NCBI GenBank assembly: GCA_030615505.1
Contig: JAUWZD010000040.1
Coordinates: forward strand, 1-38,161
Reading direction: 5' to 3'
DNA from: Spirochaetales bacterium
GTDB taxonomy: Bacteria; Spirochaetota; Spirochaetia; SZUA-6; DRHE01
Length of the DNA: 38,161 nucleotides
Under the pieces are notes generated by a model, which worked only from the letters and a program-made list of their open reading frames with translations, was not told the origin of the DNA and searched no databases. Of this stretch, positions 13,944 through 26,975 are shown piece after piece. A program made the translations under genes and the position numbers. Each line of letters opens with the position of its first letter. Position 1 is the first letter of the stretch.

Positions 13944-14969
13944 ATGAAGAACTGCTTTCTATTTCCTGGTCAGGGAGCGCAGTACCCGGGCATGGGCCGT
14001 GATCTCTGGGAATCGAGCCTGAAAGTCAAGGATCTGTTCCATCTTGCCTCTGATGTAACATCCATGGATCTAGAAAAACTTCTCTTTGAGGGAAGTGAAG
14101 AGGAGCTCAAATCTACTGATAAAACACAGATTGCTGTAACACTGGTGAATCTTTCTGCACGTCTGGCCCTCAAAGAAAAGGGTGTAGAGGCTGACGGTTG
14201 TTCCGGTTTCAGTCTGGGCGAATACTCGGCCCTGTATGAGGCTGGAGTGATCGAGCTCGAAGACCTTTTTGCAATAGTTAAAGCCCGGGGTGAGCTTATG
14301 GAAAGAGCAAGCCGGAATCTTGACAGCCGAAGGTTCCGACCTTGGGGCCGAAGGTCCCGACTGCCGCAGGTCCCGAACTTGGGGTGGGGCTGCAGAGACA
14401 ATACTACCGCTCCAGGCGATCCCGGAGTCAAGGCCGGCATGGCTGCGGTATTGGGATTGGAATACGATGAGGCTGTAGGAGTCCTTAAAAAGCTTAAAGG
14501 AGACGAGGTCTATCTGGCTAACTATTCGAGCCCCATCCAGATTGTACTGGCAGGAACACACCGAGGTCTGGAAAAGGCAAGGCCTCTATTTGAAGAGGCG
14601 GGAGCCATGCGATTTATTACACTCAGAGTTTCGGGTCCCTTTCATTCTCCCCTCCTTGAAGAAGCAAGGGCAGGACTTAAGGAAGTGCTTTCCGGATACA
14701 CCTTTAAAGACCCGGTAAAGCCCGTATATGCCAATGCAAGCGGTAAAGCTGTTGGATCCGGAGCTGAAGCAAAGGAGCTCTGTGTGCGTCAGATCGTGTC
14801 CACCGTACTCTGGGTTAATGAGGAACAGAGTATCCTTAATGACGGCTACGATAGATTCTTAGAGGTGGGTCCCGGTTCCGTTCTTTCAGGGCTCTGGAAG
14901 TCCTTTTATAAGAAGATAAAATGTAAACCTGCCGGAAAGCTGGAGGATATAGAGAAGCTTATAAAATAA
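13944..14969 (+). CDS. fabD: Malonyl-CoA:ACP transacylase (FabD-like) with a 35-40 residue insertion
   Basis: The enzyme loads malonyl units onto the carrier protein. FLFPGQGAQYPGMG opens the protein, the nucleophile Ser90 lies in GFSLGEYSALYEAG, Arg115 (KARGELM) is the expected malonyl-carboxylate contact and His234 lies in VSGPFHSPLL, so the active site is complete. The usual GHS is GFS here. Between RGELMERAS and GMAAVLGL the family has about 6-10 residues; here there are about 41 (residues 124-164). They are encoded partly by a GC-rich imperfect repeat that keeps the frame. The length is 341 residues against about 310 usual. A GGGAGAT ribosome binding site supports the start. It is the first gene of the ten-gene operon. 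Confidence 0.85.
   Translation: MKNCFLFPGQGAQYPGMGRDLWESSLKVKDLFHLASDVTSMDLEKLLFEGSEEELKSTDKTQIAVTLVNLSARLALKEKGVEADGCSGFSLGEYSALYEAGVIELEDLFAIVKARGELMERASRNLDSRRFRPWGRRSRLPQVPNLGWGCRDNTTAPGDPGVKAGMAAVLGLEYDEAVGVLKKLKGDEVYLANYSSPIQIVLAGTHRGLEKARPLFEEAGAMRFITLRVSGPFHSPLLEEARAGLKEVLSGYTFKDPVKPVYANASGKAVGSGAEAKELCVRQIVSTVLWVNEEQSILNDGYDRFLEVGPGSVLSGLWKSFYKKIKCKPAGKLEDIEKLIK
14326..14384. repeat. Three imperfect short repeats forming hairpins inside fabD
   Basis: Three related units (14326-14347, 14347-14366, 14367-14384) share ccgaaggt(t/c)ccga and end partly in cttgggg. They can form aaggt-tccg-acctt (14330-14343) or gacctt-ggggccg-aaggtc (14338-14356), two overlapping hairpins. They code for an Arg/Pro/Trp-rich peptide unlike anything in FabD, so this is an inserted repeat that preserved the frame. 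Confidence 0.65.
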
Positions 14970-15017
14970 AATGAAATGCAAAGCAGAGGTCTCTTGTGAA
15001 ATTATGATAAACAGGAT

Positions 15018-16313
15018 ATGGTTCGGATCATGAAAAGAAGAGTCGTAATTACCGGTATGGGCACCATCAACCCCCTTGGAGATACACTGACTGAATATTA
15101 CAAGAATCTGATAAATGGAAAATCCGGAATAAAAAGGTGGGAATCCCTGGACATGACCCACGTGGAATGTAAGATCGGCGGAGATTTGGGAAACTATGAC
15201 TGCAAATCCAGCCTGGAGAAATTTAAAGAATCTCTCTCAGAGGAGAAGTATAAAAAAACCCGCAAGCTCTTCCGCTCCGCTACCTTTTCTTCGAAGACAG
15301 CGGTTCTCTGCGCTCTTGACGCCTACCGTGATGCGGGACTTCTGGGACTGGATGGCGATCCCTTCCGAACCAGTGTCATTGTAGGAGGGCATAATTTAAA
15401 CTCTAACTATATCTTAAAAAATGCTAAGCTGTTTTTAGAAGAGCCGGAGTTTATCGACCCCCTGTGCGGTGTGGAAGCTATTGACCCTAATGTGCCCGCT
15501 GTCATAACGGAAGTGCTGGATCTTCAAGGCCCTACCTTCACCATTGGAGGAGCCTGCGCCAGCGGGAATCTGGCCATGAGAGAAGGGTTCCGGGATATCA
15601 TTACGGGTGAGTGCGACTCATCCGTTGTAACAGGGGCGTTATTTGATATGTCCCCGGCGGATATTCACGCCTCCGTATTTATCAATGCCGTAGTTGTAAA
15701 ACCGGAGTTTCAGGAGATGCCTGAGGAGGCCTCAAGACCCTTCGATGCCTCAAGATGCGGATTTGTCTATTCTCACGGAGCGGGAACCATAATCTTAGAA
15801 GAACTTGAATCAGCCTTAAATCGTGGAGTCCATATCTATGGGGAAGTTCTGGGAGTAAAAGCCAATGCCAATGCCTGTCATCTGCCCCAGCCCGCTGCAG
15901 AAACACAGGAGAGGATCATCACTGACCTCTTAAAAGCCACCCATACCGACCCCCAAAGTATCGATTATGTAAACTGCCATGCAACAGGCACGCCTGTCGG
16001 GGATTTAGAAGAGATAAGGGCCATAAAAGGAGCATTCGGTGATCATGCCTATAAGCTGAAGCTCAATGCTCCGAAATCAATGCTTGGACATGTCTGCTGG
16101 TCAGCCCCCATTGTCGAGACCATCGGCGGACTCCTGCAGATGCAGTTTGGGACGCTCCATCCCACGATCAATATAGAGCGGCTCGATCCTGAGGTTGATC
16201 TGGATATTTGCGCCAATACTTCAATCGAGCACAGAATCACCTATATATTGAAGAACTCATTCGGATTCGGAGGCATCAATGCCTGCAGCCTTATAAAACG
16301 GTACGAGGAATAG
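15018..16313 (+). CDS. Beta-ketoacyl-ACP synthase, first ketosynthase of the operon (KS1)
   Basis: A 431-residue KAS I/II-fold ketosynthase for decarboxylative condensation on ACP. RRVVITGMGTINPLGD opens the protein, the nucleophile Cys180 lies in GGACASGNLAM, His321 in NCHATGTPVGD and His358 in KSMLGHVCWSAP, so the Cys-His-His triad is intact. The motif neighbours are unusual (IGGACASGN instead of the common xxxACATG; CWSAP instead of LLGAAGG), which sets it apart from housekeeping FabF and from KS2. HMGS cassettes normally include a ketosynthase-like decarboxylase with Cys changed to Ser; this protein keeps Cys. Starts at 15018 and 15030 are both possible. It lies 48 bases after fabD and 3 bases before the ketoreductase. 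Confidence 0.85.
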   Translation: MVRIMKRRVVITGMGTINPLGDTLTEYYKNLINGKSGIKRWESLDMTHVECKIGGDLGNYDCKSSLEKFKESLSEEKYKKTRKLFRSATFSSKTAVLCALDAYRDAGLLGLDGDPFRTSVIVGGHNLNSNYILKNAKLFLEEPEFIDPLCGVEAIDPNVPAVITEVLDLQGPTFTIGGACASGNLAMREGFRDIITGECDSSVVTGALFDMSPADIHASVFINAVVVKPEFQEMPEEASRPFDASRCGFVYSHGAGTIILEELESALNRGVHIYGEVLGVKANANACHLPQPAAETQERIITDLLKATHTDPQSIDYVNCHATGTPVGDLEEIRAIKGAFGDHAYKLKLNAPKSMLGHVCWSAPIVETIGGLLQMQFGTLHPTINIERLDPEVDLDICANTSIEHRITYILKNSFGFGGINACSLIKRYEE

Positions 16314-16316
16314 AGT

Positions 16317-17057
16317 ATGAATGTATTTATTACCGGGGGATCCAGGGGAATTGGAAGAGCTATTGTTCTTAGAATGGCAAGAGAAGGTCACGGCTGCGCC
16401 TTTACCTATGCGGGGAATGCCGCTGCAGCGGATGAGACAATCAAGCTGGCCAAAGAGATCGATAATAGAGCGCCGGTGAAAGCCTATCAAATGGATGTAA
16501 AGATTGCAGGTGAGGTAGAAGCAGTGGTTGAAAAAGCTATTGATGATTTTGAGAATTTTGGGGCTGTAGTCAACAATGCCGCAATCGCTAAAAATAACGC
16601 CGCTGCTTTGATGAGCGATGAGGAATGGGATGAAGTGATGAGCACCAATCTCTCCGGTCCCTTCTACGTGATACGCAGCTTTCTCATGCACTTCATCGCC
16701 AATAGAAACGGCCGTATTATTAATATCTCCTCCCTGGCCCAGGACGGATGCAGCGGCCAGGTAAACTATGCAGCCAGTAAGGCGGGCCTAATAGGCCTGA
16801 CCAAAACCCTGGCCAGGGAGTATGGACCTAAGGGAATCACCGCTAATATAGTCACCGTGGGATATGTAGAAACCGATATGACCGACCAGCATTTAGCTGA
16901 TAAGCTCCATAAAATCTGGATGGAGTACTGCCCTCTTAAGCGCGCCGGTACGGCTGAGGAAATCGCCGGTTTAGTGTACTACCTCTGCACCGATGAGGCG
17001 GGATTCATAAACGGCGAGGTGATCCGGGTAGCCGGAGGCTTGACCTACATACCTTAA
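16317..17057 (+). CDS. fabG: 3-oxoacyl-ACP reductase (FabG-like SDR)
   Basis: A 246-residue classical SDR: NADPH-binding GGSRGIGRA (8-16), NNAA (86-89), catalytic serine in ISSLAQDG (about 138-139) and Y151-x3-K155 in VNYAASKAG. Family knowledge makes it the ketoreductase of the elongation cycle, reducing 3-oxoacyl-ACP to 3-hydroxyacyl-ACP. AGGA seven bases before the ATG and a 3-base gap from KS1 point to one transcript. In this operon it could also reduce a 3-keto-sphingoid product of the alpha-oxoamine synthase; that is inference. Confidence 0.85.
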   Translation: MNVFITGGSRGIGRAIVLRMAREGHGCAFTYAGNAAAADETIKLAKEIDNRAPVKAYQMDVKIAGEVEAVVEKAIDDFENFGAVVNNAAIAKNNAAALMSDEEWDEVMSTNLSGPFYVIRSFLMHFIANRNGRIINISSLAQDGCSGQVNYAASKAGLIGLTKTLAREYGPKGITANIVTVGYVETDMTDQHLADKLHKIWMEYCPLKRAGTAEEIAGLVYYLCTDEAGFINGEVIRVAGGLTYIP

Positions 17058-17077
17058 TAAGTCTACTATCGGCTGAT

Positions 17078-18307
17078 ATGAAAAGAATTGGAATTGAAAA
17101 GATAAATCTATACGGAACATCTCTCTTCCTCGATCAAGTCAAACTGGCAGAGGCAAGGGGTAAGGATCCGGATAAAGTAGTGACTGATTTCCTGATCGAT
17201 GTCCGTTCCTTGAACCCCCCCTATGAAGATACAGTCACCATGGGCGCCAATGCAGCCGGACCAATGCTTACAGAAGAAGATAAAAGCTCAATCAGCATGC
17301 TGATTGTGGGTACAGAGGGTTCGGTTGATTTCGGCAAGCCCATCAGCACCAATATACACGGCGCCTTAAAGCTGACTCCAAATGTTAGGAATTTTGAAAC
17401 CAAGCATGCCTGTTACTGCGGGGTCGCTGCTTTAGATACGGCTCTGAACTGGATTGCATCCGGTCTGAACAGGGGAAAAAAGGCCTTAGTTATAACCACA
17501 GATTTCAGCAGAATGCACCTCAATACCAAGGAAGAATTTGTCATGGGCGGGGTTGCTGCAGCATTGCTGGTCAGTGAGAATCCAAAGGTAATCGAATACG
17601 AGCTGGTAAAGAAGGGAAGCTGGACAACCAATGTCTATGATACCTTCAGACCGAGCGCCAGGCATGAGGTGGGCAATAATGAGATAAGCCTCTTCAGTTA
17701 TATCGATGCTTTAGAGGGCTCGTATGCAGATTATGTGAAGCAGTGCGGTAATTCAATTGATTTTGACACCCATTTCTCATATATCAATTATCACACTCCC
17801 TTCCCCGCCATGTCCTTTCAGGCTCACAGGACACTATGCAATATTGCAAGACCGAGAAAAAAGGCCGAAGTCAAGGAGAGCTTTCAAAAAAAGGTATTTC
17901 CTACCCTCCTCTATTCCCGGAAAGTTGGGAGCACCTATGGGGCAAGCAACTTTGTCGGTTTGTGCGCATTGATGGAGAGTATAAATACTCTGAAAGCAGG
18001 TGACCGTGTAGGCTTTTTCACCTATGGCTCAGGTGCAATAGGAGAATTCTACAGCGGGCTCATCTGCCCGGAAGCTCAAGTTACTATTAAAAGCCTGAAC
18101 CTTGACGGACATTTCGATTCAAGGAGAGAGGTCAGTGTAGAAGAATATGAAATGATCGAGAAAATCCGGGAAAGCTATATTGAAAATCCCAACTTCGCTC
18201 CAGATTTTTCAATCCTCGATAACTGGTACGATGCACACTACAGAGACAGGGGATACCTTGTTCTGAAAGAGGTAAAGGACTTTTATCGAACATACGAATG
18301 GAGCTAG
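17078..18307 (+). CDS. HMG-CoA-synthase-like enzyme for polyketide beta-branching (PksG/MupH/CurD type)
   Basis: A 409-residue HMG-CoA synthase homologue. The catalytic set is visible: Glu80 (IVGTEGSVDFGKP), Cys112 (ETKHACYCGVAAL), His239 (YHTPFPAMSFQAHR) and the C-terminal FFTYGSGAIGEFYSG. In polyketide pathways such enzymes add the methyl carbon of acetyl-ACP to a beta-ketoacyl-ACP, giving an HMG-like intermediate that becomes a beta-methyl or methylene branch. A mevalonate pathway role is possible in principle. The directly following ECH1 and ECH2 genes, the ACP and the absence of HMG-CoA reductase or mevalonate kinases favour beta-branching. It starts 20 bases after the ketoreductase. Confidence 0.88.
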   Translation: MKRIGIEKINLYGTSLFLDQVKLAEARGKDPDKVVTDFLIDVRSLNPPYEDTVTMGANAAGPMLTEEDKSSISMLIVGTEGSVDFGKPISTNIHGALKLTPNVRNFETKHACYCGVAALDTALNWIASGLNRGKKALVITTDFSRMHLNTKEEFVMGGVAAALLVSENPKVIEYELVKKGSWTTNVYDTFRPSARHEVGNNEISLFSYIDALEGSYADYVKQCGNSIDFDTHFSYINYHTPFPAMSFQAHRTLCNIARPRKKAEVKESFQKKVFPTLLYSRKVGSTYGASNFVGLCALMESINTLKAGDRVGFFTYGSGAIGEFYSGLICPEAQVTIKSLNLDGHFDSRREVSVEEYEMIEKIRESYIENPNFAPDFSILDNWYDAHYRDRGYLVLKEVKDFYRTYEWS

Positions 18308-18311
18308 AGCA

Positions 18312-19130
18312 TTGCCGTCCGTAACTCATTATACTGATTCTCAAGCTGCCGTAATCACACTCAACAAGAGTGAAGAGGGCAACCGCCTTGACCTTGAAAC
18401 CCTGGAACATCTCTCCTCTACATTCAATAAATCTTCCCTGGATAATAACGTACGGGTAATTCTCCTTCGTTCCAATGGAAATACATTCTGCACGGGAATG
18501 GACCTGGTTCAATTACAGAACCTTAAAGCAGGAATGGACAGGGCTGAGAAAGCGCTGTCCCTCTATGTTGATCTGCTCTCAGCTATCTATAACTCTCCTA
18601 AACCTGTAATATGCCTGGTAAACGGCGATGTTAAAGCGGGTGGCGTAGGTTTAATGTCTGCCTGCGATATAATTATAGCCTCAAATGATTCCAATTTTGA
18701 ATTAAGTGAGGTGCTCTTTGGGCTCATTCCCGCTAATGTGCTCCCCTATCTATTCTCTCTGCGGATCACGCCCCAGAAGGCGCGGTACCTGATCCTAAGC
18801 TCCAAGAGGATCTCGGCCGCGGAGGCTCACCGCCTTAATTTGGTGGATGAAATCTTTCCCCGGCACGAACTGGAGAAGGCTGTACGAACCGTGATTAAGA
18901 GGCTCTTCCGCTCCTCTCCCGGGGCTTTAGCAGAAACCAAGGCCTTTACTAAGATGCTTCTTGGAAAGGAGCTCGATACGGCAAGAGAGCTGGCCAAAGA
19001 GAAGCTGCTTGAGCTGATAAAGCGCCCTGAAGTTATACATGCGGTTACCGCCTTCAATGAAGGAAGCGTTCCTGACTGGTTCGGCCGTTACAGGCCGCAA
19101 AAAGAGATTGTCCCCGGGGTGGAAACATGA
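18312..19130 (+). CDS. Enoyl-CoA hydratase-like protein, ECH1 type (HMG-ACP dehydratase)
   Basis: A 272-residue crotonase-fold protein: oxyanion-hole segments FCTGMDLVQLQN (about 59-70) and VNGDVKAGGVGLMSACDI (103-120), and a catalytic-type Glu133 in FELSEVLFGLIPANVL. This pattern matches the PksH/CurE/TaX-type dehydratases that remove water from HMG-ACP to give methylglutaconyl-ACP. The start is TTG at 18312, five bases after the HMGS stop, with GGAG a suitable distance upstream inside the HMGS gene. Its end overlaps the ECH2 start by four bases (ATGA), a sign of translational coupling. The role is assigned from family and cassette order. Confidence 0.83.
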   Translation: MPSVTHYTDSQAAVITLNKSEEGNRLDLETLEHLSSTFNKSSLDNNVRVILLRSNGNTFCTGMDLVQLQNLKAGMDRAEKALSLYVDLLSAIYNSPKPVICLVNGDVKAGGVGLMSACDIIIASNDSNFELSEVLFGLIPANVLPYLFSLRITPQKARYLILSSKRISAAEAHRLNLVDEIFPRHELEKAVRTVIKRLFRSSPGALAETKAFTKMLLGKELDTARELAKEKLLELIKRPEVIHAVTAFNEGSVPDWFGRYRPQKEIVPGVET

Positions 19131-19876
19131 AAAGAAAAATCTGCTTAAGCGTGCAGGATACAGGTATTGCCCGTCTTAAGATGAATGACAGTGAAGGAAA
19201 AAATATCTTTACTAAGGAATTTATAAATGAGTTTGTCCATGCCCTGGATGAGCTTGAAAACATTTATAAGCCAAAGGTACTTATCCTGCACGGTCTGGAT
19301 GATGTGTTCTGCGGCGGTGCCGAAAAGGAAACCCTGATCGATCTCTGCGACGGCAAGATTGTCGTGATTGATCTCATATTATCGGAGAGACTGGTGAATC
19401 TCCCCTTCCCGGTAATCGCGGCCATGGAGGGCCATGCAATGGGAGGCGGCCTGGTGGTAGGGCTCTGCTGTGACATAGTGATTGCAGCCAGGGAGAGCCG
19501 CTACGGGTCGGTGTTCATGTCCATGGGCTTTACACCGGGTATGGGCTGCACAACCCTGCTCTCAGAATTGGTCGGTCCCTACATTGCCAATGAGATGATG
19601 TTCACGGGTAGGCGCTTTCGGGGAAGCGAGCTTGCAGGCAAAGGGACCCATATCAATTACATTCTCCCTAAAAGCGAGGTCCTTCAGAAAGCCGGGGATT
19701 TAGCTTTACAGATAAGTGAGAAGAATGTAAAATCACTCTACCTTTTGAAATATACGTTGGGCGCAAAGAAGAAGAAGCTCTTAATAGACGCCAGGCTTCA
19801 GGAAGACCTTATGCACCGCATAACTTTTGCATTTCCTGAAACCAAAAAGACGATTAACGAACTTTATGTGGAATAA
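19127..19876 (+). CDS. Enoyl-CoA hydratase-like protein, ECH2 type (methylglutaconyl-ACP decarboxylase)
   Basis: A 249-residue crotonase-fold protein: VFCGGAEKETL (60-70), AMEGHAMGGGLVVGLCCDI (99-117) and the signature MGFTPGMGCT (133-142). That last motif is typical of PksI/CurF-ECH2/TaY decarboxylases rather than of beta-oxidation hydratases. These enzymes decarboxylate methylglutaconyl-ACP to a 3-methylcrotonyl-type thioester and so finish the beta-branch. With HMGS and ECH1 directly upstream, the three core cassette enzymes lie in order. Whether an alpha,beta or beta,gamma double bond results cannot be predicted here. Confidence 0.85.
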   Translation: MKRKICLSVQDTGIARLKMNDSEGKNIFTKEFINEFVHALDELENIYKPKVLILHGLDDVFCGGAEKETLIDLCDGKIVVIDLILSERLVNLPFPVIAAMEGHAMGGGLVVGLCCDIVIAARESRYGSVFMSMGFTPGMGCTTLLSELVGPYIANEMMFTGRRFRGSELAGKGTHINYILPKSEVLQKAGDLALQISEKNVKSLYLLKYTLGAKKKKLLIDARLQEDLMHRITFAFPETKKTINELYVE

Positions 19877-19884
19877 GATCATTT

Positions 19885-20691
19885 ATGATACAGATCGATC
19901 TGAGCGGAAATGTAGTACTCATCACCGGCGGCACAAAGGGGATTGGACGGGCTGCTGCTTTGAGCTTTGCCCAGGCCGGGGCGAAATGCTTTCTTACCTA
20001 TAAATGGGGAAGCGCGGATATAGAAGAAATCCAAAGGGAGTTTGAGGCAGAAGGCGCTGAAATTCCAGTAGTTCTCCCGGCCGATGTATCCGTAGAAGAG
20101 GATACGGATCATCTGATGGAAGAGATCGGTAAAACAGAAAAAAGGGTCGATATTTTTATAAGCAATGTAGGCTTTGCCCTGCGCACCATGTCCCTGGATG
20201 ATTACAAGAAACGTTCTCTCTATAAAACCCTGGATTACAGTACCTGGCCTATTATTGAATACTGCCGGAAAATAAAAAAGAGTTTCGGCAGCTATCCCCA
20301 TAATATCGTAGCTGTATCGAGCGACGGGCCGGATCATTTCTACCGGGGATACGACTTTGTGGCTGCTTCCAAATCTCTTTTAGAGTTTTTCTCAAAGTAT
20401 CTTTCCGTACATCTCTTCAGAGAAGGGAGCAGAGTCAATGTGATCCGTTTCGGTATGGTAGAAACGGAATCCTTTCAGGCTGTTTTCGGTAAAGAGTTCT
20501 TTAACTATATTTTAGAGAATGGTGTTCAGGAGGGAATGCTTTTGACACCTGAAACTTGCGGAAAAGCGGTTTTAGCACTCTGCAGCGGACTGCTGGATGC
20601 AGTGAATGGGCAGATTATCACTGTTGATTACGGTCTGCCCTTTCAGGATAACATCATGATGCGTTATCTTGAATCTAAAGAGGTGAAATAG
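19885..20691 (+). CDS. SDR with Y-x6-K motif, probable FabL/FabI-type enoyl-ACP reductase
   Basis: A 268-residue SDR: GGTKGIGRAAALSFAQAG binds NAD(P), and SNVGF stands where NNAG is usual. The catalytic pair is not Y-x3-K. The position four before Lys163 is Val, and instead Tyr156 is separated from Lys163 by six residues (RGYDFVAASK). Y-x6-K is the hallmark of SDR enoyl-ACP reductases FabI and FabL. The surroundings (VAVSS before it, ASKSLLEFFSKYLSVHL after it) are more FabL-like than FabI-like. The expected role is the last reduction of each elongation cycle, or reduction of the branched enoyl group. An automated label would probably be just 'SDR oxidoreductase'. Confidence 0.75.
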   Translation: MIQIDLSGNVVLITGGTKGIGRAAALSFAQAGAKCFLTYKWGSADIEEIQREFEAEGAEIPVVLPADVSVEEDTDHLMEEIGKTEKRVDIFISNVGFALRTMSLDDYKKRSLYKTLDYSTWPIIEYCRKIKKSFGSYPHNIVAVSSDGPDHFYRGYDFVAASKSLLEFFSKYLSVHLFREGSRVNVIRFGMVETESFQAVFGKEFFNYILENGVQEGMLLTPETCGKAVLALCSGLLDAVNGQIITVDYGLPFQDNIMMRYLESKEVK

Positions 20692-20715
20692 CGCCAGGTT
20701 TTTCACCTGGTGTTT
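20681..20715 (+). promoter_or_regulatory. Two mutually exclusive hairpins before the acyl carrier protein gene
   Basis: aggtgaaa (20681-20688) pairs perfectly with tttcacct (20701-20708). Alternatively ccaggt (20694-20699) pairs with acctgg (20705-20710), followed by tgttttt. The two stems share bases, so only one can form. The second plus its T-run looks like a weak intrinsic terminator and the first like an anti-terminator overlapping the end of the reductase gene. This could set ACP levels or be an RNA processing site. Confidence 0.45.
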
Positions 20716-20742
20716 TTATATTACAAAATCAAGGAGAAATGT

Positions 20743-20988
20743 ATGACAAAAGAGAGAGTAATAGAGGTTATTAAGAACAATATTATTGAGAATCTTGACG
20801 ATCTGGAAGTGGATGATATCGATCCGCAGAAATCCATGAAGGACTACGGCGCAAACAGCCTGGATATGATTGAGGTTGTATCATGTTCCATGCGCGAGCT
20901 GAAGATTAAAATCCCCAGGTCAGAACTGGCTGATATTGCCAATATTGACCATCTGGCCGATAAGTTCATGGATTATGTAGATAAGTAG
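20743..20988 (+). CDS. Acyl carrier protein
   Basis: An 81-residue ACP carrying growing chains on a phosphopantetheine arm at the serine of GANSLDMIEVV (about residue 46). The usual D of the DSL motif is N. A G-A-N-S-(L/I)-D form is familiar from donor ACPs of HMGS cassettes, but with only one ACP in the cluster this one would have to serve several steps. The ATG at 20743 is chosen because AAGGAG lies directly upstream; an upstream start at 20710 would add a non-family leader. It sits between the enoyl reductase and the alpha-oxoamine synthase, whose start is one base after its stop, so ACP-bound acyl chains are probable substrates of that enzyme. Confidence 0.92.
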   Translation: MTKERVIEVIKNNIIENLDDLEVDDIDPQKSMKDYGANSLDMIEVVSCSMRELKIKIPRSELADIANIDHLADKFMDYVDK

Positions 20989-20989
20989 C

Positions 20990-22246
20990 ATGCCTGATGT
21001 ATTAAGCTACAGCCTGGCTGATTTCTTCTATACTGATAATCCGGATGTTCTCTCACCTCCGGAAGATTTTCTAGAATGGATCAACCACCCAAGGGTCAGA
21101 CAGTGTTTCAGTTTTTTCGAGCAGCAGCTCCTGGCCGCGCCAAGAACATCCACAGAGATACTGAGCAATATTGATAATAAGAGAAGGAAGATAATAAATC
21201 TTACCTCCTACAATTACCTTGGTCTATCTTCTCACCCTGAAGTAATTCAGGCTGCAAAAGAGGCGCTCGATCAGTATGGATTGGGCGCTTCCGGCGCCCC
21301 CCTATTATCAGGAACCTTTGACCTTCACGCGCGATTCGCCAGGATGCTGGCTGATTTTAAGCAGAAGGAGGACTGCCTTCTCTACTCCAGCGGCCTGGGC
21401 GGGAATATGGGCGCTATCCAGGGAATATTGAGAAAAGGGGATATGTTTATCCTGGATGAGAAGTGCCATAAGAGCCTTGTAGACGGCGGAACTCTATCTG
21501 GAGCTAAGATGCTCTTCTTTGAGCATAACAACCCCGATTCTTTAGCCATGATGCTTGAGAAAAGCAGGGGTAAGAGAGTCATGGTCGCGGTCGAAGGTGT
21601 GTATTCCATGGACGGCGACTTAGTAAAATTAAAGGATATCGTTGAGGTCTGCGATCAGTATAAAGCCGCTATCTATATTGATGAAGCCCATTCAACCCTC
21701 ATGTTCGGTCCCAACGGCAGGGGTGTTGCTGAACACTTCGGTCTTGAGCATAAAATGGGAGTCAGCTTCGGTACTTTGAGCAAATCCTTCGGGGGTGTGG
21801 GAGGCTTCGTCTGCTCTAATGCCGATCTTATCAGCTATTTAAAGTGCTACTCCTCTCCGTGGAACTTCTCATGCGCGTCCTCGCCTCCCGTAGTAGCCGG
21901 TTTAATTAAAGCCCTGGAGGTGGCTACCCGCGATTCTTCGCTCCGGGATAAGATGTGGCAGAATGTGGCCTATTTTAAAAAAAGGCTTGTTGATCTTAAG
22001 CTCGATATAGGGCAGACCGAATCCCAGGTTATACCCATAATTATAGGCTCCTCCGGGGAGAAGCTCATGAGCTTTGCCTGGGAAATTCAAAAGCGCGGGC
22101 TCTTCCTTCAACCGGTTGATTTTCCCGCTGTGCCTGCGGAATCAAGAAGATTCAGGATTTCCGTTTCGTCCCAGCTAACTCAGGCTGAAATGGATGAGGC
22201 TCTGAACATTATCGAGGATGTTATTGCTAAGGGCTTAAAATCCTGA
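20990..22246 (+). CDS. PLP-dependent alpha-oxoamine synthase, serine palmitoyltransferase-like
   Basis: A 418-residue fold-type I PLP enzyme: NLTSYNYLGLSSHPEV, LYSSGLGGNMGAI, His160 stacking on PLP (DEKCHKSL), D231-E-A-H234 and the PLP lysine Lys265 in GTLSKSFGGVGGF. These positions agree with those I recall for bacterial serine palmitoyltransferase (His159, Asp231, His234, Lys265). The SKSFGGVGGF.CSN stretch is closer to SPT than to BioF or KBL, and the 65-residue N-terminal extension also fits. The enzyme should condense an amino acid with an acyl thioester, losing CO2 and releasing the chain as an alpha-aminoketone. The amino acid cannot be predicted. BioF is the main alternative, but no other biotin gene is nearby. 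Confidence 0.85.
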   Translation: MPDVLSYSLADFFYTDNPDVLSPPEDFLEWINHPRVRQCFSFFEQQLLAAPRTSTEILSNIDNKRRKIINLTSYNYLGLSSHPEVIQAAKEALDQYGLGASGAPLLSGTFDLHARFARMLADFKQKEDCLLYSSGLGGNMGAIQGILRKGDMFILDEKCHKSLVDGGTLSGAKMLFFEHNNPDSLAMMLEKSRGKRVMVAVEGVYSMDGDLVKLKDIVEVCDQYKAAIYIDEAHSTLMFGPNGRGVAEHFGLEHKMGVSFGTLSKSFGGVGGFVCSNADLISYLKCYSSPWNFSCASSPPVVAGLIKALEVATRDSSLRDKMWQNVAYFKKRLVDLKLDIGQTESQVIPIIIGSSGEKLMSFAWEIQKRGLFLQPVDFPAVPAESRRFRISVSSQLTQAEMDEALNIIEDVIAKGLKS

Positions 22247-22258
22247 TTAAAAAAAAGC

Positions 22259-22786
22259 ATGGATTATGATAAACTTTTAAGACAGCATAGAAAAAAGTCT
22301 TTAGTTAATCTAGAAGATGTGAGTCACAAAATCGATCTTGGCAGGGAAGAGATTAAAAGAATAATCCCCCACCGGGAGCCTTTTCTCTTAGTCGATCGAA
22401 TTACAGGTATTGATTTTTCCCGTGAGCTTATTACAGGATCCAGAATAATCAAAGAGAATGATCCTGTATTTCAGGGTCATTTCCCTGAATACCCCGTATA
22501 TCCCGGATGCCTTGAAATCGAAATGATAGGCCAGTTAGGCCTCTGCATGCAGTATTTCCTGAAGAATCGTACAACTAAAATCCACGATAATGCCAGTCCT
22601 GCTCCGGTAAGAGCCACCCGGGTTGTGGGAGCATACTTTTTGGAGCCTCTCCTTCCCGAAATGGAAGTTATTTTAATAGCGAAGAAGCTTGAATATGACG
22701 GCTTTTTTGCAAAAATGATCGGACAGGCTATAATTGATGGTAAGGTATGCTGTGTATCAATCGGAGAGGTCTGCTTCCTCGATTAA
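22259..22786 (+). CDS. 3-hydroxyacyl-ACP dehydratase (FabZ-like)
   Basis: A 175-residue hot-dog-fold dehydratase. The catalytic His38 lies in IIPHREPFLLVDRI, and Glu88 in FPEYPVYPGCLEIEMIGQ occupies the FabZ glutamate position. The N-terminal 30 residues are an extra segment compared with FabZ (about 145 residues). It supplies the dehydration step of the elongation cycle. It is the last gene of the plus-strand run, 12 bases after the alpha-oxoamine synthase, and overlaps the end of the convergent KS2 gene by four bases. Confidence 0.85.
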   Translation: MDYDKLLRQHRKKSLVNLEDVSHKIDLGREEIKRIIPHREPFLLVDRITGIDFSRELITGSRIIKENDPVFQGHFPEYPVYPGCLEIEMIGQLGLCMQYFLKNRTTKIHDNASPAPVRATRVVGAYFLEPLLPEMEVILIAKKLEYDGFFAKMIGQAIIDGKVCCVSIGEVCFLD

Positions 22787-24048
22787 GAGGTAAATCTGGA
22801 AATAACCAGGGCTGCGTTCTGTCCGCCGAACCCGAAGCTATCGGAGAGAATGTGATCGACCTTTGCTTCCATAGGTTTATTTTTCACTACGTTCAGATTG
22901 ATCTCAGGATCCTGTTCAAACTGATTGATTGTAGGATGAATAACACCCTGCTTTAAAGTGAGGATGGCTGCAATTGCTTCAACTCCGCCCGCTGCACCGA
23001 GCAGGTGGCCCACCATTGACTTGGTGCTGTGTACCGGAACTTTTGTAGCATAGTCTTTAAATATTTTATTTATAGCAATACATTCAATTAAATCCCCAAG
23101 CGGAGTGGAGGTCGCATGCCCATTAATAAGACCGATATCTTCCGGATCGAGTCTTGCAAAAGCTAAAGCGTTCTGAACTGCCTGGACCGCACCCCGGCCC
23201 TCAGGATGCGGAGCAACCAGGTCATGGGCATCGCTGCTGAAACCGAATCCGGTAATCTCTCCGTAGATACGAGCTCGGCGCCTCTTCGCATGCTCCAGTT
23301 CTTCAAGGCAGAGAACACCCGCTCCCTCGCTCAATACAAATCCATCCCGGCTCTTATCAAAGGGTCTGCTCGCCGTATGGGGCGAATCATTCCGTTCAGA
23401 CAGCGCCATTATATTTCCGAATCCAGCGATACCATTGGCAGAAATCGCAGCTTCTGAGCCCCCTGCAAATATTGCATCTGCCATTCCCATCTTTATGAGA
23501 AACACAGCTAAGCCTATGGCATGATTGCTGGTTGCACAGGCCGAGTTTACAGAAAAACTCGGGCCCTGTAGATTCCACTCCTGGGCAAAGTAGCTTGAAC
23601 CTGTATTGGGAATGGCATTGATAATATAGAAGGGAGAGACAGCCTGCATACCCTCATTGATGATTCTCTTTACATTATCGTAATTGGCTATTACACCGCC
23701 GTCCCCGGAACCAATGATTGTTCCATAGCGATGAGGCGCCTTCTCGATTTCAATTCCCGAATCTTCAATTGCCTGGCATCCCGCCACATGAGCCAGTATT
23801 ATGTAGCGGTCTAGGCGTCTACTCATTTTCTTATCTTTAAAGTATCTTGAGAGATCGGGAAAATCTACCTCTCCTGCAATTTTTACGCTGTAATCGTTTG
23901 AATCAAAATTTGTAATCAAGCGAACACCGGATTTCCCCTTGATGAGATTATCCCAATATTCCTCCACCGTATTCCCTATGGGATTTATGGTACCTAGTCC
24001 GGTTATAACAACACGTACTTCGTGAGGATTCTTTTGATCGTTTCTCAT
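22783..24048 (-). CDS. Beta-ketoacyl-ACP synthase II-like (KS2, FabF family)
   Basis: A 421-residue KAS II: VRVVITGLGTINPIGNTVEE, nucleophile Cys171 (VNSACATSNHAIG), His311 (NGHATSTPLGD), His348 (TKSMVGHLLGAAGG) and C-terminal SFGFGGQNAALV, all canonical. It is closer to standard FabF than KS1 is, so KS2 may do ordinary elongation while KS1 handles a special step. It is encoded opposite to the operon, tail to tail with the dehydratase (the stop codons interleave), and divergent from the PPTase. Its own promoter lies directly at the start codon, with no ribosome binding site visible, suggesting a leaderless message. Confidence 0.88.
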   Translation of the reverse strand: MRNDQKNPHEVRVVITGLGTINPIGNTVEEYWDNLIKGKSGVRLITNFDSNDYSVKIAGEVDFPDLSRYFKDKKMSRRLDRYIILAHVAGCQAIEDSGIEIEKAPHRYGTIIGSGDGGVIANYDNVKRIINEGMQAVSPFYIINAIPNTGSSYFAQEWNLQGPSFSVNSACATSNHAIGLAVFLIKMGMADAIFAGGSEAAISANGIAGFGNIMALSERNDSPHTASRPFDKSRDGFVLSEGAGVLCLEELEHAKRRRARIYGEITGFGFSSDAHDLVAPHPEGRGAVQAVQNALAFARLDPEDIGLINGHATSTPLGDLIECIAINKIFKDYATKVPVHSTKSMVGHLLGAAGGVEAIAAILTLKQGVIHPTINQFEQDPEINLNVVKNKPMEAKVDHILSDSFGFGGQNAALVISRFTS

Positions 24049-24056
24049 GATTCGAT

Positions 24057-24085
24057 ATTCAATAGATAAATAAGCACTTTGTCAA
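24057..24085 (-). promoter_or_regulatory. Promoter of the KS2 gene
   Basis: On the minus strand TTGACA (24085-24080), a 17-base spacer and TTGAAT (24062-24057). The predicted start near 24050 is two bases from the ATG at 24048, which predicts a leaderless mRNA. Confidence 0.5.
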
Positions 24086-24127
24086 TACACTGATTAGTCC
24101 CTGGGAAAAACAGGATAATAACGGGAT

Positions 24128-24156
24128 TTGACAATAATCTGAAATTCTCTGATAGT
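24128..24156 (+). promoter_or_regulatory. Promoter of the phosphopantetheinyl transferase gene
   Basis: TTGACA (24128-24133), a 17-base spacer and GATAGT (24151-24156). The predicted start near 24163 is only a few bases before the ATG at 24167. Confidence 0.5.
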
Positions 24157-24166
24157 AATAAGGAAT

Positions 24167-24898
24167 ATGTATGAGGATTACAAGCCGTGGGATTCACCTC
24201 CTCCATTCCCACAGTTATCTCGTGATGAGGTTCATGTATGGAGGGTTTCGCTGGATCAGCCAAGGGTAAAGCTGTCTGCGCTTGAAAAAATACTGTCTAA
24301 AGACGAAATAAAGAGGTCACAGCAGTTCTATTTCGAACAAGACAGAATGCGCTACATTATAAGCCGGGGTTCATTGCGAAAGATCTTGGGTTTATATCTT
24401 GACAGAGCCTCAGAATCTTTACAGTTTCATACAGACCGGCAAGGTAAACCCTTTTTAACTGACAACAGGCAGTCAATTCAATTCAATGTTTCTCATTCCG
24501 GAGATGTAACATTAATTGCCATCTCAATGCATCGGCGTGTGGGTGTTGATATTGAAAGGGCAAGAGAAGGGATACGAATGGATGAAATCACAGAAATTTT
24601 TTTTTCTATTCCGGAAAAAAAATATCTGCAAGCCCTGCCTAAAAAAGAAAGATTCAGGCTTTTTTTTACTATCTGGACACGTAAGGAAGCAGTGATTAAA
24701 GCCCTGGGAGGGAACATAGCCGGTTTAAAGGATTTTGCCGTATTGAATGATACAGTTAATGAAGGAATGTTGATCGATGTTCCGGACACGGAAAACTCCG
24801 CGTGGATCTTATGGGATCTAAAACCTTCACCCGGCTATTCCGGTGCTGTATGCCTGGAAGGTAGAAAGTGCAAGCTCTCATGCTGGCATATGGCATAG
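24167..24898 (+). CDS. 4'-phosphopantetheinyl transferase, Sfp/Gsp type
   Basis: A 243-residue Sfp-type PPTase (family length about 220-240): FNVSHSGD (107-113), VGVDIER with Mg ligands D128 and E130, and FFTIWTRKEAVIKALGG with W170, K173 and E174. It transfers phosphopantetheine from CoA to the serine of carrier proteins, most simply the ACP at 20743. Secondary-metabolite clusters often bring their own Sfp-type enzyme, whereas housekeeping FAS uses AcpS; this supports a dedicated role for the system. It is divergent from KS2, with its own promoter. Confidence 0.92.
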   Translation: MYEDYKPWDSPPPFPQLSRDEVHVWRVSLDQPRVKLSALEKILSKDEIKRSQQFYFEQDRMRYIISRGSLRKILGLYLDRASESLQFHTDRQGKPFLTDNRQSIQFNVSHSGDVTLIAISMHRRVGVDIERAREGIRMDEITEIFFSIPEKKYLQALPKKERFRLFFTIWTRKEAVIKALGGNIAGLKDFAVLNDTVNEGMLIDVPDTENSAWILWDLKPSPGYSGAVCLEGRKCKLSCWHMA

Positions 24899-25031: not shown

Positions 25032-25943
25032 ATGATGAATCAATTAATAAGTGATTACAAGAAAACATTAAAGCCAAATGAAACTGAAGAAATAGTTAAT
25101 TTGCTCTTTTTCCGACCCACAGCCTTTTTATTCGTTTTAATAGTAAAGAAGATAGATTTTTCACCGAATTATTTTACTTTTACTTCTTTAATATTCGGAC
25201 TGCTCTCAGGATACTACCTCAGCCAGGGTGCCTTAAGCTTAGGAGCCCTGTTTATATATTTAATGATATCATTCGACTGTTCCGACGGGCAGCTTGCAAG
25301 GTTAAAGGGAATCTCAACCAAATATGGGAAAATGCTCGATAACGTTGCGGATATAATATCCTATTTAGCCATGCTTTTTGGTATTGCTTATTACCAGTAC
25401 TATCTCCATTCTAATCCGTATGTTTTTTCATATGCCGGCCTGTCCTTCCTTGTACTGGGCATGAATGTGTTATTTTGGGATCAGTTTAAGAATCAATATA
25501 TAATGTATGTCTATAATGACTATCATGATAAAGTGGATCCCTTATCGATCCTGTACCGGCATTACTCTTCAAGCAGAGGGATAAAAAAAGTAGCCAATTA
25601 TGTATATTATAATATTTATAAATTCGAAACAAGCATAACGAAGCTGGGCTGCTTATCTGATTCTAAGAGACGTCCATCTGTTTTTGAGGTTGAAGGATTC
25701 AAGCCAACTAAAGATATGCAGGAGTTGTATAAAGAGACATTCACTTCTTCTATAAGGTTGTGGAGCTTCATCGGCACGAGTACGCACTTCTTTTTAGTTA
25801 TCCTGCTTGCAATTATAAACAGAATCGAAATGGTCTTTGCTGTATTCATTATATATTCTATTTTAATGTGCATTACAGCCCTTATCTATCAGAATATTGC
25901 TTATGCAAAATTTAAGAAAAAGTTAAAGAGCATACCTGTATAA
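25032..25943 (+). CDS. CDP-alcohol phosphatidyltransferase family membrane protein
   Basis: A 303-residue membrane enzyme with the complete CDP-OH-P motif D-x2-D-G-x2-A-R-x8-G-x3-D-x3-D: D82, D85, G86, A89, R90, G99, D103 and D107 in SFDCSDGQLARLKG and YGKMLDNVAD. Hydrophobic segments precede and follow it, and another pair lies at the C-terminus after a roughly 90-residue soluble insert (about 160-240). The family moves a phospho-alcohol from a CDP-activated donor to an alcohol, forming phospholipid-like products; donor and acceptor are not predictable. An ATG with GGAGA upstream. It is followed after 9 bases by a YbhN-type membrane protein. Position right after the fatty acid/oxoamine cluster suggests head-group transfer to its product (inference). 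Confidence 0.85.
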   Translation: MMNQLISDYKKTLKPNETEEIVNLLFFRPTAFLFVLIVKKIDFSPNYFTFTSLIFGLLSGYYLSQGALSLGALFIYLMISFDCSDGQLARLKGISTKYGKMLDNVADIISYLAMLFGIAYYQYYLHSNPYVFSYAGLSFLVLGMNVLFWDQFKNQYIMYVYNDYHDKVDPLSILYRHYSSSRGIKKVANYVYYNIYKFETSITKLGCLSDSKRRPSVFEVEGFKPTKDMQELYKETFTSSIRLWSFIGTSTHFFLVILLAIINRIEMVFAVFIIYSILMCITALIYQNIAYAKFKKKLKSIPV

Positions 25944-25952
25944 TCAAGAAAT

Positions 25953-26975
25953 ATGAAGCTGTCAAAACGTCTTTTACGCCTGATTATATTTTTAGCTCTC
26001 AGCATATTCTCAATAGGTCTCATATTATACCTTACTGCTAACAGGGAAACCCTAAAGGCGCTCACCAGCATAAAGGGAACCTATCTCTTTATCCTCGCAG
26101 GGATATGGCTTTTTGCCATCACTATGGACGCCTCAGCCATTATGTTTTTTGTTTCCGGCACAGATGAAAAGATCAGGCTCTGGAATGCGTATAAAGCTGC
26201 TGCGATTCGAATTTTCTTCAACCTTGTAACCCCTTTCAGCGCAGGCGGCCAGCCTGTAATGATCTATACACTGAGCAAAGAGAGGATCCCCGGAGGCAAG
26301 GCTTCATCAATTGTTATTATGAAGCTGATATCGCTCGCCGCATTTAACCTGCTCGGCGGCATTACTGCATTCGTTTTCTTTCATGAATATATAAGCGATA
26401 TTGCAGCTTTGAATACAGCCTTTTTTATTGCAGGAATTGTACTATTCTTTATCATAACAAGTCTCATCGTCGTGCTGATGAATCCCCACTTAATCATCCC
26501 ATTCATAGAAAAGCTCGGAATATTTCTTCACCGCTTAAAAGTGATTAAAGATGTGAAAGTATTTCATAAAAAGGTTATAAAAGAAGCGCGTCATGCCAGA
26601 AAAAGCTTCAGGCAGTACTTTGGACACGGCTTCGGTTTTTTTCTAGCCGGTACTCTCTCAAGCGGCCTAATGTATTTCGCAGAGCTTCTCATGTTATGGA
26701 TAATACTGCGCGGCTTTGGCGTGGAGCTTCAATTCATCGAGGGAATTACACTCAGCGCTCTTCTGTTCTTTCTGCTGGGCTTTATGCCCACACCGGGATC
26801 CGCAGGCCTGGGCGAAGCTATCTTTATAGTAATTTTTGCAGGCACAGTTCCAAAATATCTGTTGGGTGTGGCGGTTTTAGTCTGGCGCCTGTTCCACCGC
26901 TACTTAAGCGGCATTGGCGGCGCTTTTTTTTCAGCCGGGTATTTCACCAGGATTATAGTCAGGGACTCTGATTAA
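25953..26975 (+). CDS. Lysylphosphatidylglycerol synthase TM / YbhN (UPF0104) family protein
   Basis: A 340-residue polytopic membrane protein with the family core TPFSAGGQPVMIYTLSKERI (about 88-107) and the C-terminal LGFMPTPGSAGLGEAIF motif. This is the transmembrane domain of MprF-type proteins without the aminoacyl transferase part. Such domains are regarded as lipid flippases or accessory factors in lipid and glycan export. Nine bases separate it from the CDP-alcohol phosphatidyltransferase, so the two probably make and translocate the same lipid. Its end overlaps the end of the convergent FloA-operon gene by four bases. Confidence 0.85.
   Translation: MKLSKRLLRLIIFLALSIFSIGLILYLTANRETLKALTSIKGTYLFILAGIWLFAITMDASAIMFFVSGTDEKIRLWNAYKAAAIRIFFNLVTPFSAGGQPVMIYTLSKERIPGGKASSIVIMKLISLAAFNLLGGITAFVFFHEYISDIAALNTAFFIAGIVLFFIITSLIVVLMNPHLIIPFIEKLGIFLHRLKVIKDVKVFHKKVIKEARHARKSFRQYFGHGFGFFLAGTLSSGLMYFAELLMLWIILRGFGVELQFIEGITLSALLFFLLGFMPTPGSAGLGEAIFIVIFAGTVPKYLLGVAVLVWRLFHRYLSGIGGAFFSAGYFTRIIVRDSD

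Follow-up and report, generated by a model that had tools for sequence, protein, structure and literature searches.

A discrete fatty acid synthase-like gene array with a beta-branching cassette and an alpha-oxoamine synthase in a spirochaete genome, with a probable role in sphingolipid-like lipid synthesis

Beta-branching cassettes built around a 3-hydroxy-3-methylglutaryl (HMG) synthase are familiar from modular polyketide synthases (PKSs), among them those of bacillaene and curacin, with genes that we take to be PksF-I/AcpK and CurB-F, respectively, and that of virginiamycin M. We know of no characterized cassette of this kind outside the service of a modular PKS, and of none outside the polyketide lines that make specialised metabolites. 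In the fungal and cyanobacterial systems in which a PKS is combined with an alpha-oxoamine synthase (AOS), such as SphA of sphingofungin and others, the AOS frees the chain as an aminoketone, and no HMG synthase-dependent branching is known to us there. The locus described here occupies positions 13944-24898 of contig JAUWZD010000040.1 from a Spirochaetales bacterium (the window, 38,161 bases, which is the whole of contig C44 in a 4.44 Mb draft genome that is 93% complete), and it places a branching cassette and an AOS among separately encoded proteins of the fatty acid synthase (FAS) type. The system is probably a discrete FAS, working on an acyl carrier protein (ACP), that introduces beta-methyl branches and releases its chain through AOS-catalysed joining to an amino acid, most likely serine, as the beginning of a sphingolipid-like membrane lipid.

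Pfam and NCBIfam profile searches recover all twelve genes that an initial annotation had named in this region, and its description of ten head-to-tail genes with a convergent ketosynthase (KS) and an Sfp-type phosphopantetheinyl transferase (PPTase) was correct. The PPTase, which had been called divergent, is so with respect to the convergent KS, but is hence encoded in the same direction as the operon. The gaps between the ten co-directional genes (13944-22786) range from -4 to 48 bases, and the convergent KS downstream of the dehydratase gene is followed by the PPTase and the genes for a CDP-alcohol phosphatidyltransferase and a flippase-like protein. Most of the cassette proteins match their NCBIfam models below the curated cut-offs, with ECH2 and KS2 scoring above theirs. 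The genes are as follows, given with their short names.

13944..14969, plus strand: AT, malonyl-CoA:ACP transacylase, a FabD duplicate (TIGR00128, 243 bits, cut-off 261)
15018..16313, plus strand: KS1, beta-ketoacyl-ACP synthase of the PRK07103 kind (NF005490, 326 bits, cut-off 445)
16317..17057, plus strand: KR, FabG-type 3-oxoacyl-ACP reductase (TIGR01830, 237 bits, cut-off 298)
17078..18307, plus strand: HMGS, HMG-ACP synthase-type enzyme (profile scores against the PDB, and tree)
18312..19130, plus strand: ECH1, presumed HMG-ACP dehydratase (PF00378, 156 bits)
19127..19876, plus strand: ECH2, presumed 3-methylglutaconyl-ACP decarboxylase of the PksI type (NF005496, 268 bits, cut-off 215 passed)
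19885..20691, plus strand: SDR2, FabL-like, presumed enoyl-ACP reductase (NF005975 (FabL) best, 104 bits, cut-off 328)
20710..20988, plus strand: ACP of the donor kind (AcpK/CurB) (NF005502 best, 63 bits, cut-off 79)
20990..22246, plus strand: AOS, pyridoxal phosphate-dependent, presumed chain release (PDB profile and tree)
22259..22786, plus strand: DH, FabZ-type dehydratase (PF07977, 62 bits; FabZ, 83 bits, cut-off 113)
22783..24048, minus strand: KS2, FabF-type elongating synthase (TIGR03150, 514 bits, cut-off 494 passed)
24167..24898, plus strand: PPTase of the HetI/Sfp type (PF01648, 69 bits; NF042922, 190 bits, cut-off 370)
25032..25943, plus strand: CDP-alcohol phosphatidyltransferase, candidate head-group enzyme (PF01066, 51.5 bits)
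25953..26975, plus strand: flippase-like LPG_synthase_TM protein, candidate lipid flippase (PF03706, 105 bits)

The array is clearly conserved. When 84,980 species genomes were scanned with an HMGS profile, 178 relatives were confirmed, and the 80 loci kept for analysis comprise 33 of type A, in which the HMGS is more than 56% identical to that of the window, 13 of type B and 34 others. The type A loci repeat the order KS1-KR-HMGS-ECH1-ECH2-SDR-ACP-AOS-DH at 34-82% protein identity, a recurrence that makes the array more than a chance arrangement. Their labels, which for metagenome-assembled genomes (MAGs) may be wrong, are those of 23 spirochaetes (one a symbiont of Olavius algarvensis), five Aminicenantes, two FCPU426, one Firestonebacteria and one Chlamydiae, the remaining locus being unlabelled. 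Type B loci follow the order AT-DH-KS1-KR-HMGS-ECH1-ECH2-SDR-ACP-SDR-AOS, often with two SDR2-like genes and with some inversions, and are labelled as six Bacteroidota, three Myxococcota, one Hyphomicrobiales, one Saccharibacteria and one Lokiarchaeota MAG (L117), with one locus unlabelled. The BLAST maps miss some genes, for example the ECH1 of L075, a gene in L080 that Pfam recognises as PPTase-like and, in the Salinispira locus described below, the acyltransferase, for which an ORF on the opposite strand had been selected, so that all gene and neighbour counts for these loci are lower bounds. An AOS is present in 21 of the 33 type A and eight of the 13 type B loci, KS2 in 16 and AT in seven of the type A loci (several of the latter cut short), and a PPTase lies near the cassette in three type A and five type B loci at the threshold used. 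In ten of the 12 type A loci that lack an AOS the contig stops no more than about 2.1 kb past HMGS, L090 and L095 being the exceptions, and L107 and L124 are the two of the five AOS-less type B loci with more than 9 kb of sequence downstream. The HMGS of L117 belongs to a third clade of the HMGS tree, about 40% identical to the window protein, together with those of L111, L114, L118 and L120 from other spirochaetes; these loci contain KR-HMGS pairs, extended to KR-HMGS-ECH1-ECH2-ACP in L114 and to DH-KS1-KR-HMGS-ECH1 in L117, and no AOS was seen in the maps of the five.

The branching proteins resemble those of the polyketide cassettes, which likewise contain an HMG-ACP synthase, an ECH1, a PksI-type ECH2 and a donor-type ACP, with a discrete malonyl transferase and a KS alongside. 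A profile built from 15 HMGS relatives scores 384 bits against CurD and 349 bits against PksG in the PDB, whereas the best two HMG-CoA synthases of the MvaS type reach 290 and 278 bits. In a tree of 88 rows the cassette HMGSs, together with CurD, PksG and 8s81, are separated from presumed mevalonate enzymes of lactobacilli, spirochaetes, Oceanospirillaceae and others (labels assigned by the analyst) by a branch 0.87 long (support 100/99). The HMGS thus groups with the HMG-ACP synthases, away from the presumed mevalonate enzymes, a grouping with which had been named beforehand as a refutation. Within this tree, in which the program flagged several long branches, the 34 type A sequences form a single clade (100/99) from which CurD, PksG and 8s81 branch separately, and the named close relatives of the window protein are mostly from spirochaete MAGs. 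Residues that we take to be catalytic from their positions in the families are largely invariant; counted here and below over alignment rows that include the window copy, the HMGS Cys and His are found in all 69 rows and the Glu in 68, with a gap in the last. ECH2 has its best solved matches in PksI (144 bits) and CurF (131 bits), in addition to passing the cut-off of the PksI-type decarboxylase model, and keeps His230 in 41/41 and Lys67 in 29/41 rows. ECH1 lies between HMGS and ECH2 and retains Glu133 in all 38 rows; among solved structures it matches general crotonases best, with PksH in sixth place. The ACP, with the modified Ser in all 34 rows, clearly matches CurB best (E 4e-11; the next ACP in the PDB reaches 2e-4), and its best NCBIfam model is likewise the donor-ACP one, below the cut-off.

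In contrast to the modular-PKS cassettes, no megasynthase was found here, KS1 has kept its catalytic Cys and the HMGS forms a clade of its own, while a discrete KR, DH, presumed enoyl reductase (ER) and elongating FabF are encoded at the same locus and the chain would meet an AOS. The fungal and cyanobacterial PKS-AOS systems are type I megasynthases, whereas the proteins here are discrete and of type II. A similar chemistry is also seen in the Aib isovaleryl-CoA pathway of Myxococcus xanthus, where an HMG intermediate is dehydrated, decarboxylated and reduced to a branched acyl thioester that enters lipids (PMC9131029). The Aib route, however, runs on CoA with MvaS, LiuC and AibA/B, whereas the locus encodes an HMG-ACP synthase, a PksI-type ECH2 and a carrier protein, and by both profile and tree its HMGS is not of the mevalonate MvaS type.

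The remaining proteins of the array provide a discrete AT, KS, KR, DH and ACP and, if SDR2 is the enoyl reductase, a full type II FAS. The KS0 of canonical branching cassettes is without the catalytic Cys. In KS1 the Cys/His/Lys/His set is kept in all 38 full-length rows, and the Cys in 51 of 54 KS1 records across loci, the other three being truncated (some genomes are counted under two loci). With its catalytic Cys in place KS1 likely condenses, or both condenses and makes acetyl-ACP, and the locus is therefore not simply a canonical cassette transplanted beside a FAS. SDR2 is presumed to be the enoyl reductase since FabL is its most similar relative, though far below the cut-off (best PDB match 3oic), and since the Tyr and Lys of its Tyr156-x6-Lys163 motif are conserved in 42/42 rows. 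DH has His74 in all 31 rows, and 29 of 30 relatives keep the Glu of the xxxxE motif, a motif that the remaining one lacks. The AT is 64% identical to the genome's own FabD on contig C90 and its Ser/His pair is found in all 16 aligned rows. An insert in the AT (14328-14432) places 35 residues after RNLDS where FabD has four, outside the active-site residues; its DNA appears to be GC-rich and partly repetitive.

The His/Asp/His/Lys set of serine palmitoyltransferase (SPT) is present in the AOS in all 28 rows. Against the PDB, the AOS profile scores best with the Sphingobacterium SPT 3a2b (320 bits), ahead of structures named KBL (at most 267 bits) and E. coli-type BioF (204 bits). In a tree of 35 rows, 27 cassette AOSs (20 from type A and seven of the eight from type B loci) form a clade with support of 100/98, so that the assignment to BioF, raised beforehand as a possible objection, was rejected on profile and tree alike. 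The exception, from L131, joins the E. coli BioF on a flagged long branch, and single placements of this sort are unsafe because the tree contains long branches. The window's genome has a second AOS, a CFB-type SPT on contig C165 (L052 835-2823; 504 bits, cut-off 640) with a FabZ of its own adjoining, which groups with the Sphingobacterium SPT (95/90); four of the 15 cassette genomes have an SPT with 50% or more identity to it. As this second enzyme is of the CFB-SPT kind, the organism may make two kinds of sphingoid base. Five of the 15 genomes (G042, G100, G095, G072 and G014) have a single AOS by searches with the C165 query, and it is always the cassette AOS, located within the cassette locus in G100 and G095 and on a separate contig, in the order ACP-AOS-DH and with 68-82% identity, in G072, G014 and G042.

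The bacterial sphingolipid pathway of Caulobacter and E. coli BL21 (Spt, AcpR, CerR/epi and bCerS/aca/YghO) similarly has an AOS with its own ACP and an acyltransferase of the YghO family, which in the present system is adjacent to the cassette in other genomes and lies on contig C89 in the window's genome. It differs in that the AOS here falls outside the SPT clade and beta-branching enzymes are added. No acyl-ACP synthetase (aasR) was identified at the cassette, the part of the genome that was searched for it, and the chain therefore seems to be built on the ACP. Two descriptions of the Caulobacter acyltransferase refer to what is presumably one gene. It is listed with YghO as a presumptive acyl-CoA N-acyltransferase of dihydroceramide synthesis (PMC9386255) and is named bCerS (PMC11087976). 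Of the 44 loci whose neighbours were examined, 12 have a protein of about 375 residues next to the cassette (L088, L089, L091, L093, L100, L102, L105, L113, L116, L121, L123 and L124), as does G259 (L062). When 13 members of this group are combined into a profile, it aligns over the full length with the YghO of E. coli BL21 (hhalign probability 100, E 3e-76), while Pfam gave mostly no match for the three members examined, with one weak GNAT match. The family is present in 14 of the 15 cassette genomes; in a sample of 392 genomes of the phylum it was found in 13 of the 14 with a cassette HMGS (13 with a full-length match and a fragment in G039) and in 90 of the 378 others, a comparison in which kinship is ignored.

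The acyltransferase of the window's genome, a YghO/bCerS-type protein 37% identical to YghO over its length, is part of a head-to-tail run on C89 (L172 298-4431) of an ornithine aminotransferase, an epimerase-family reductase, a membrane protein and the acyltransferase itself, possibly a ceramide-finishing cluster. The epimerase-family protein is 25% identical to E. coli CerR/epi and scores highest against the NCBIfam models OleD and HpnA, though under their cut-offs. The membrane protein looks CAAX-protease-like by eye. Other loci provide further lipid enzymes. In L100 (15154-17246), from a MAG labelled Chlamydiae, the AOS and the acyltransferase are directly followed by a fatty acid desaturase with the sphingolipid delta-4 domain PF08557 (8e-15). 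Six Bacteroidota loci have a PAP2 protein placed between the acyltransferase and AT (both neighbours are seen in five, L108 being cut), and the one tested weakly matches phosphoinositol dihydroceramide synthase (29.5 of 480 bits). A 304-residue homologue of the CDP-alcohol transferase (84 bits, 23% identity) likewise follows the PPTase in L105, and flippase-like homologues occur within the cassette loci L089 (taken to be the same contig as L061) and L102. The earlier suggestion of a sphingoid-type lipid is thus strengthened by the ceramide-synthase-family acyltransferases, the desaturase and the phosphatidyltransferase shared with L105.

The following scheme, including every reaction and their order, the branch position, the use of serine and the head group, is predicted from the genes present, their conservation, the families into which the proteins fall and the residues that they keep. 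The branch may lie in the starter, inside the chain or close to the head. The PPTase would arm the ACP, and AT or the housekeeping FabD would load malonate. A KS would decarboxylate malonyl-ACP to acetyl-ACP, and a KS would also form a beta-ketoacyl-ACP, whose beta-keto group would then be attacked by the acetyl-ACP carbon in the HMGS reaction. Dehydration by ECH1 and decarboxylation by ECH2 would give a beta-methyl-enoyl-ACP for reduction by SDR2, ordinary rounds of elongation being carried out by KR, DH, SDR2 and KS2. The AOS would release the chain as an alpha-aminoketone, the YghO/bCerS-family acyltransferase would N-acylate the aminoketone product, and a reductase, the CDP-alcohol phosphatidyltransferase and the flippase would finish and move the lipid. 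An extension of this scheme, in which the cassette is used repeatedly in alternation with unbranched rounds and yields a polymethylated, isoprenoid-like or phytanyl-like tail from malonate alone on a sphingoid head, with no isoprenoid enzymes involved, is quite improbable. If the proposed scheme holds, methyl-branched sphingoid chains would be made without leucine-derived starters or methyltransferases, and the locus would offer a naturally discrete version of a branching system whose megasynthase forms are difficult to study. Conservation of the cassette across several phyla suggests a membrane-lipid role. The parts are known; among the open-access literature matches listed, none has a title or abstract that deals with their combination into a discrete FAS with beta-branching and an AOS, or with spirochaete sphingolipid genes.

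A cultured member allows the idea to be tested immediately, since Salinispira pacifica has both the genes and a major aminolipid. Its genome (G209, taken to be this species; one contig of 3,782,798 bases) contains the acyltransferase directly upstream of AT, followed by KS1, KR, HMGS, ECH1, ECH2, SDR2, ACP, AOS and DH and then by KS2 and the PPTase, and it has one AOS besides that of the cassette, 32% identical to the C165 query. According to the species description, one of the major polar lipids is an unidentified aminolipid, and iso-C15:0, at 11.7%, is among the features that separate the strain from related Spirochaeta strains, with anteiso- and iso-even acids also present (PMC4511686). Just upstream of the cassette (L063 155-5010), a Ptb-like gene and one resembling acetate/butyrate kinases accompany genes for subunits of a POR-type ferredoxin oxidoreductase, and together they may supply branched acyl-CoA starters. 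These lipids fit the proposed pathway and prove nothing, as the anteiso- and iso-even acids and the POR and Ptb-like genes are there as well.

Several observations weigh against a branched sphingolipid pathway at this locus. The operon has a single ACP, whereas canonical cassettes have distinct donor and acceptor ACPs, and KS1 is not the condensation-inactive KS0 that supplies acetyl-ACP in those cassettes (PMC10006238). The AOS lies below the cut-off of all NCBIfam SPT, KBL and BioF models (best SPT model 310 of 640 bits), and the cassette AOS clade stands outside SPT as well as KBL and BioF. Four loci (L090, L095, L107 and L124) extend about 6-10 kb past HMGS and yet contain no AOS, and 32 of the 44 loci have no acyltransferase nearby, though its detection there is a lower bound owing to contig ends and greedy choice of open reading frames (ORFs). 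The acyltransferase family is also broad, with a match in 103 of the 392 genomes of the phylum, and in G031 it lies about 3 kb from a CFB-type SPT rather than at the cassette. Given this pairing and the CFB-type SPT on C165, the C89 acyltransferase may serve the latter enzyme, or both AOSs. Among the 46 type A and B loci, the CDP-alcohol transferase is common to the window and L105 only.

Other explanations have to be weighed against the same data. The partners of all characterized HMGS cassettes known to us are modular PKSs. Virginiamycin is such an example (PMC10006238), and by analogy the cassette could serve in trans a modular PKS from another part of the genome. Candidates of suitable size do occur, in the form of KS-bearing ORFs of 2312 residues with two KSs in G017 and of 973 residues in G006, and in the cyanobacterial L106, where an HMGS lies beside KS ORFs of 917 and 1034 residues. 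No modular PKS (MEGASYNTHASE) was, however, found in the window's draft genome, whose four KS genes are the housekeeping FabF, KS1 and KS2, all of discrete size, and a 201-residue FabF-like fragment (L051 1-603) that has a start of its own and is cut by the end of contig C155; 13 of the 15 cassette genomes, all drafts apart from G209, likewise have no KS-bearing ORF longer than 610 residues, and the 46 loci of types A and B showed none above 600 residues. A dedicated KS, KR, DH, ER and ACP would moreover render a megasynthase unnecessary. The action in trans was rejected on these surveys and is very improbable, and the earlier claim of a discrete machinery with no modular megasynthase in view agrees with what was found in the window's draft genome. 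An even smaller chance is left to a mevalonate HMGS accompanied by ECHs of fatty acid or leucine breakdown. TIGR01835 is the best NCBIfam model of HMGS (277 bits, cut-off 360) and the crotonase matches of ECH1 agree with such a role, but the HMGS falls with CurD and PksG in both profile and tree, barring long-branch effects, ECH2 exceeds the PksI-type cut-off and a donor-type ACP is encoded in the same operon; a mevalonate HMGS was accordingly rejected.

That the product is an alpha-aminoketone or a derived signal, pigment or antibiotic rather than a membrane sphingolipid is unlikely. The position of the AOS outside the SPT clade, its superfamily, to which CqsA-like autoinducer synthases also belong (NF005526, 194 bits, cut-off 428), and the many loci with no acyltransferase nearby would all agree with such a product, yet the YghO-family acyltransferases, the desaturase, PAP2 and CDP-alcohol transferase proteins and the flippase-like proteins around the cassette point towards a lipid. 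A more restricted form of the proposed pathway deserves closer consideration and may, tentatively, apply. Here branching would occur once, on acetoacetyl-ACP, and lead through 3-methylcrotonyl-ACP to isovaleryl-ACP and thus to an iso-branched sphingoid base independent of leucine. Such a starter would need malonyl-ACP only, the Aib route of M. xanthus follows the same logic on CoA (PMC9131029), and the iso-C15:0 of Salinispira agrees with it. Eight of the 15 cassette genomes, several of them incomplete drafts, have no strong match to the E1-alpha subunit of 2-oxoacid dehydrogenase, and the usual leucine route through the dehydrogenase complex is thus apparently absent from them, in a survey that covered E1-alpha. 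Strong E1-alpha matches are nevertheless present in the other seven, Salinispira and the window's genome included, and the POR-type and Ptb-like genes of Salinispira together with its anteiso- and iso-even acids suggest starters derived from amino acids. Branching of the starter alone would also not require a dedicated KR, DH, ER and second KS.

Rfam and tRNA scans of the window found nothing. Elsewhere in it, a signalling gene of the 7TM-GGDEF-EAL type at 8347-10945 appears to be split into two ORFs of 702 and 139 residues, with the break apparently inside the EAL domain, the domains having been named by reading the sequence.

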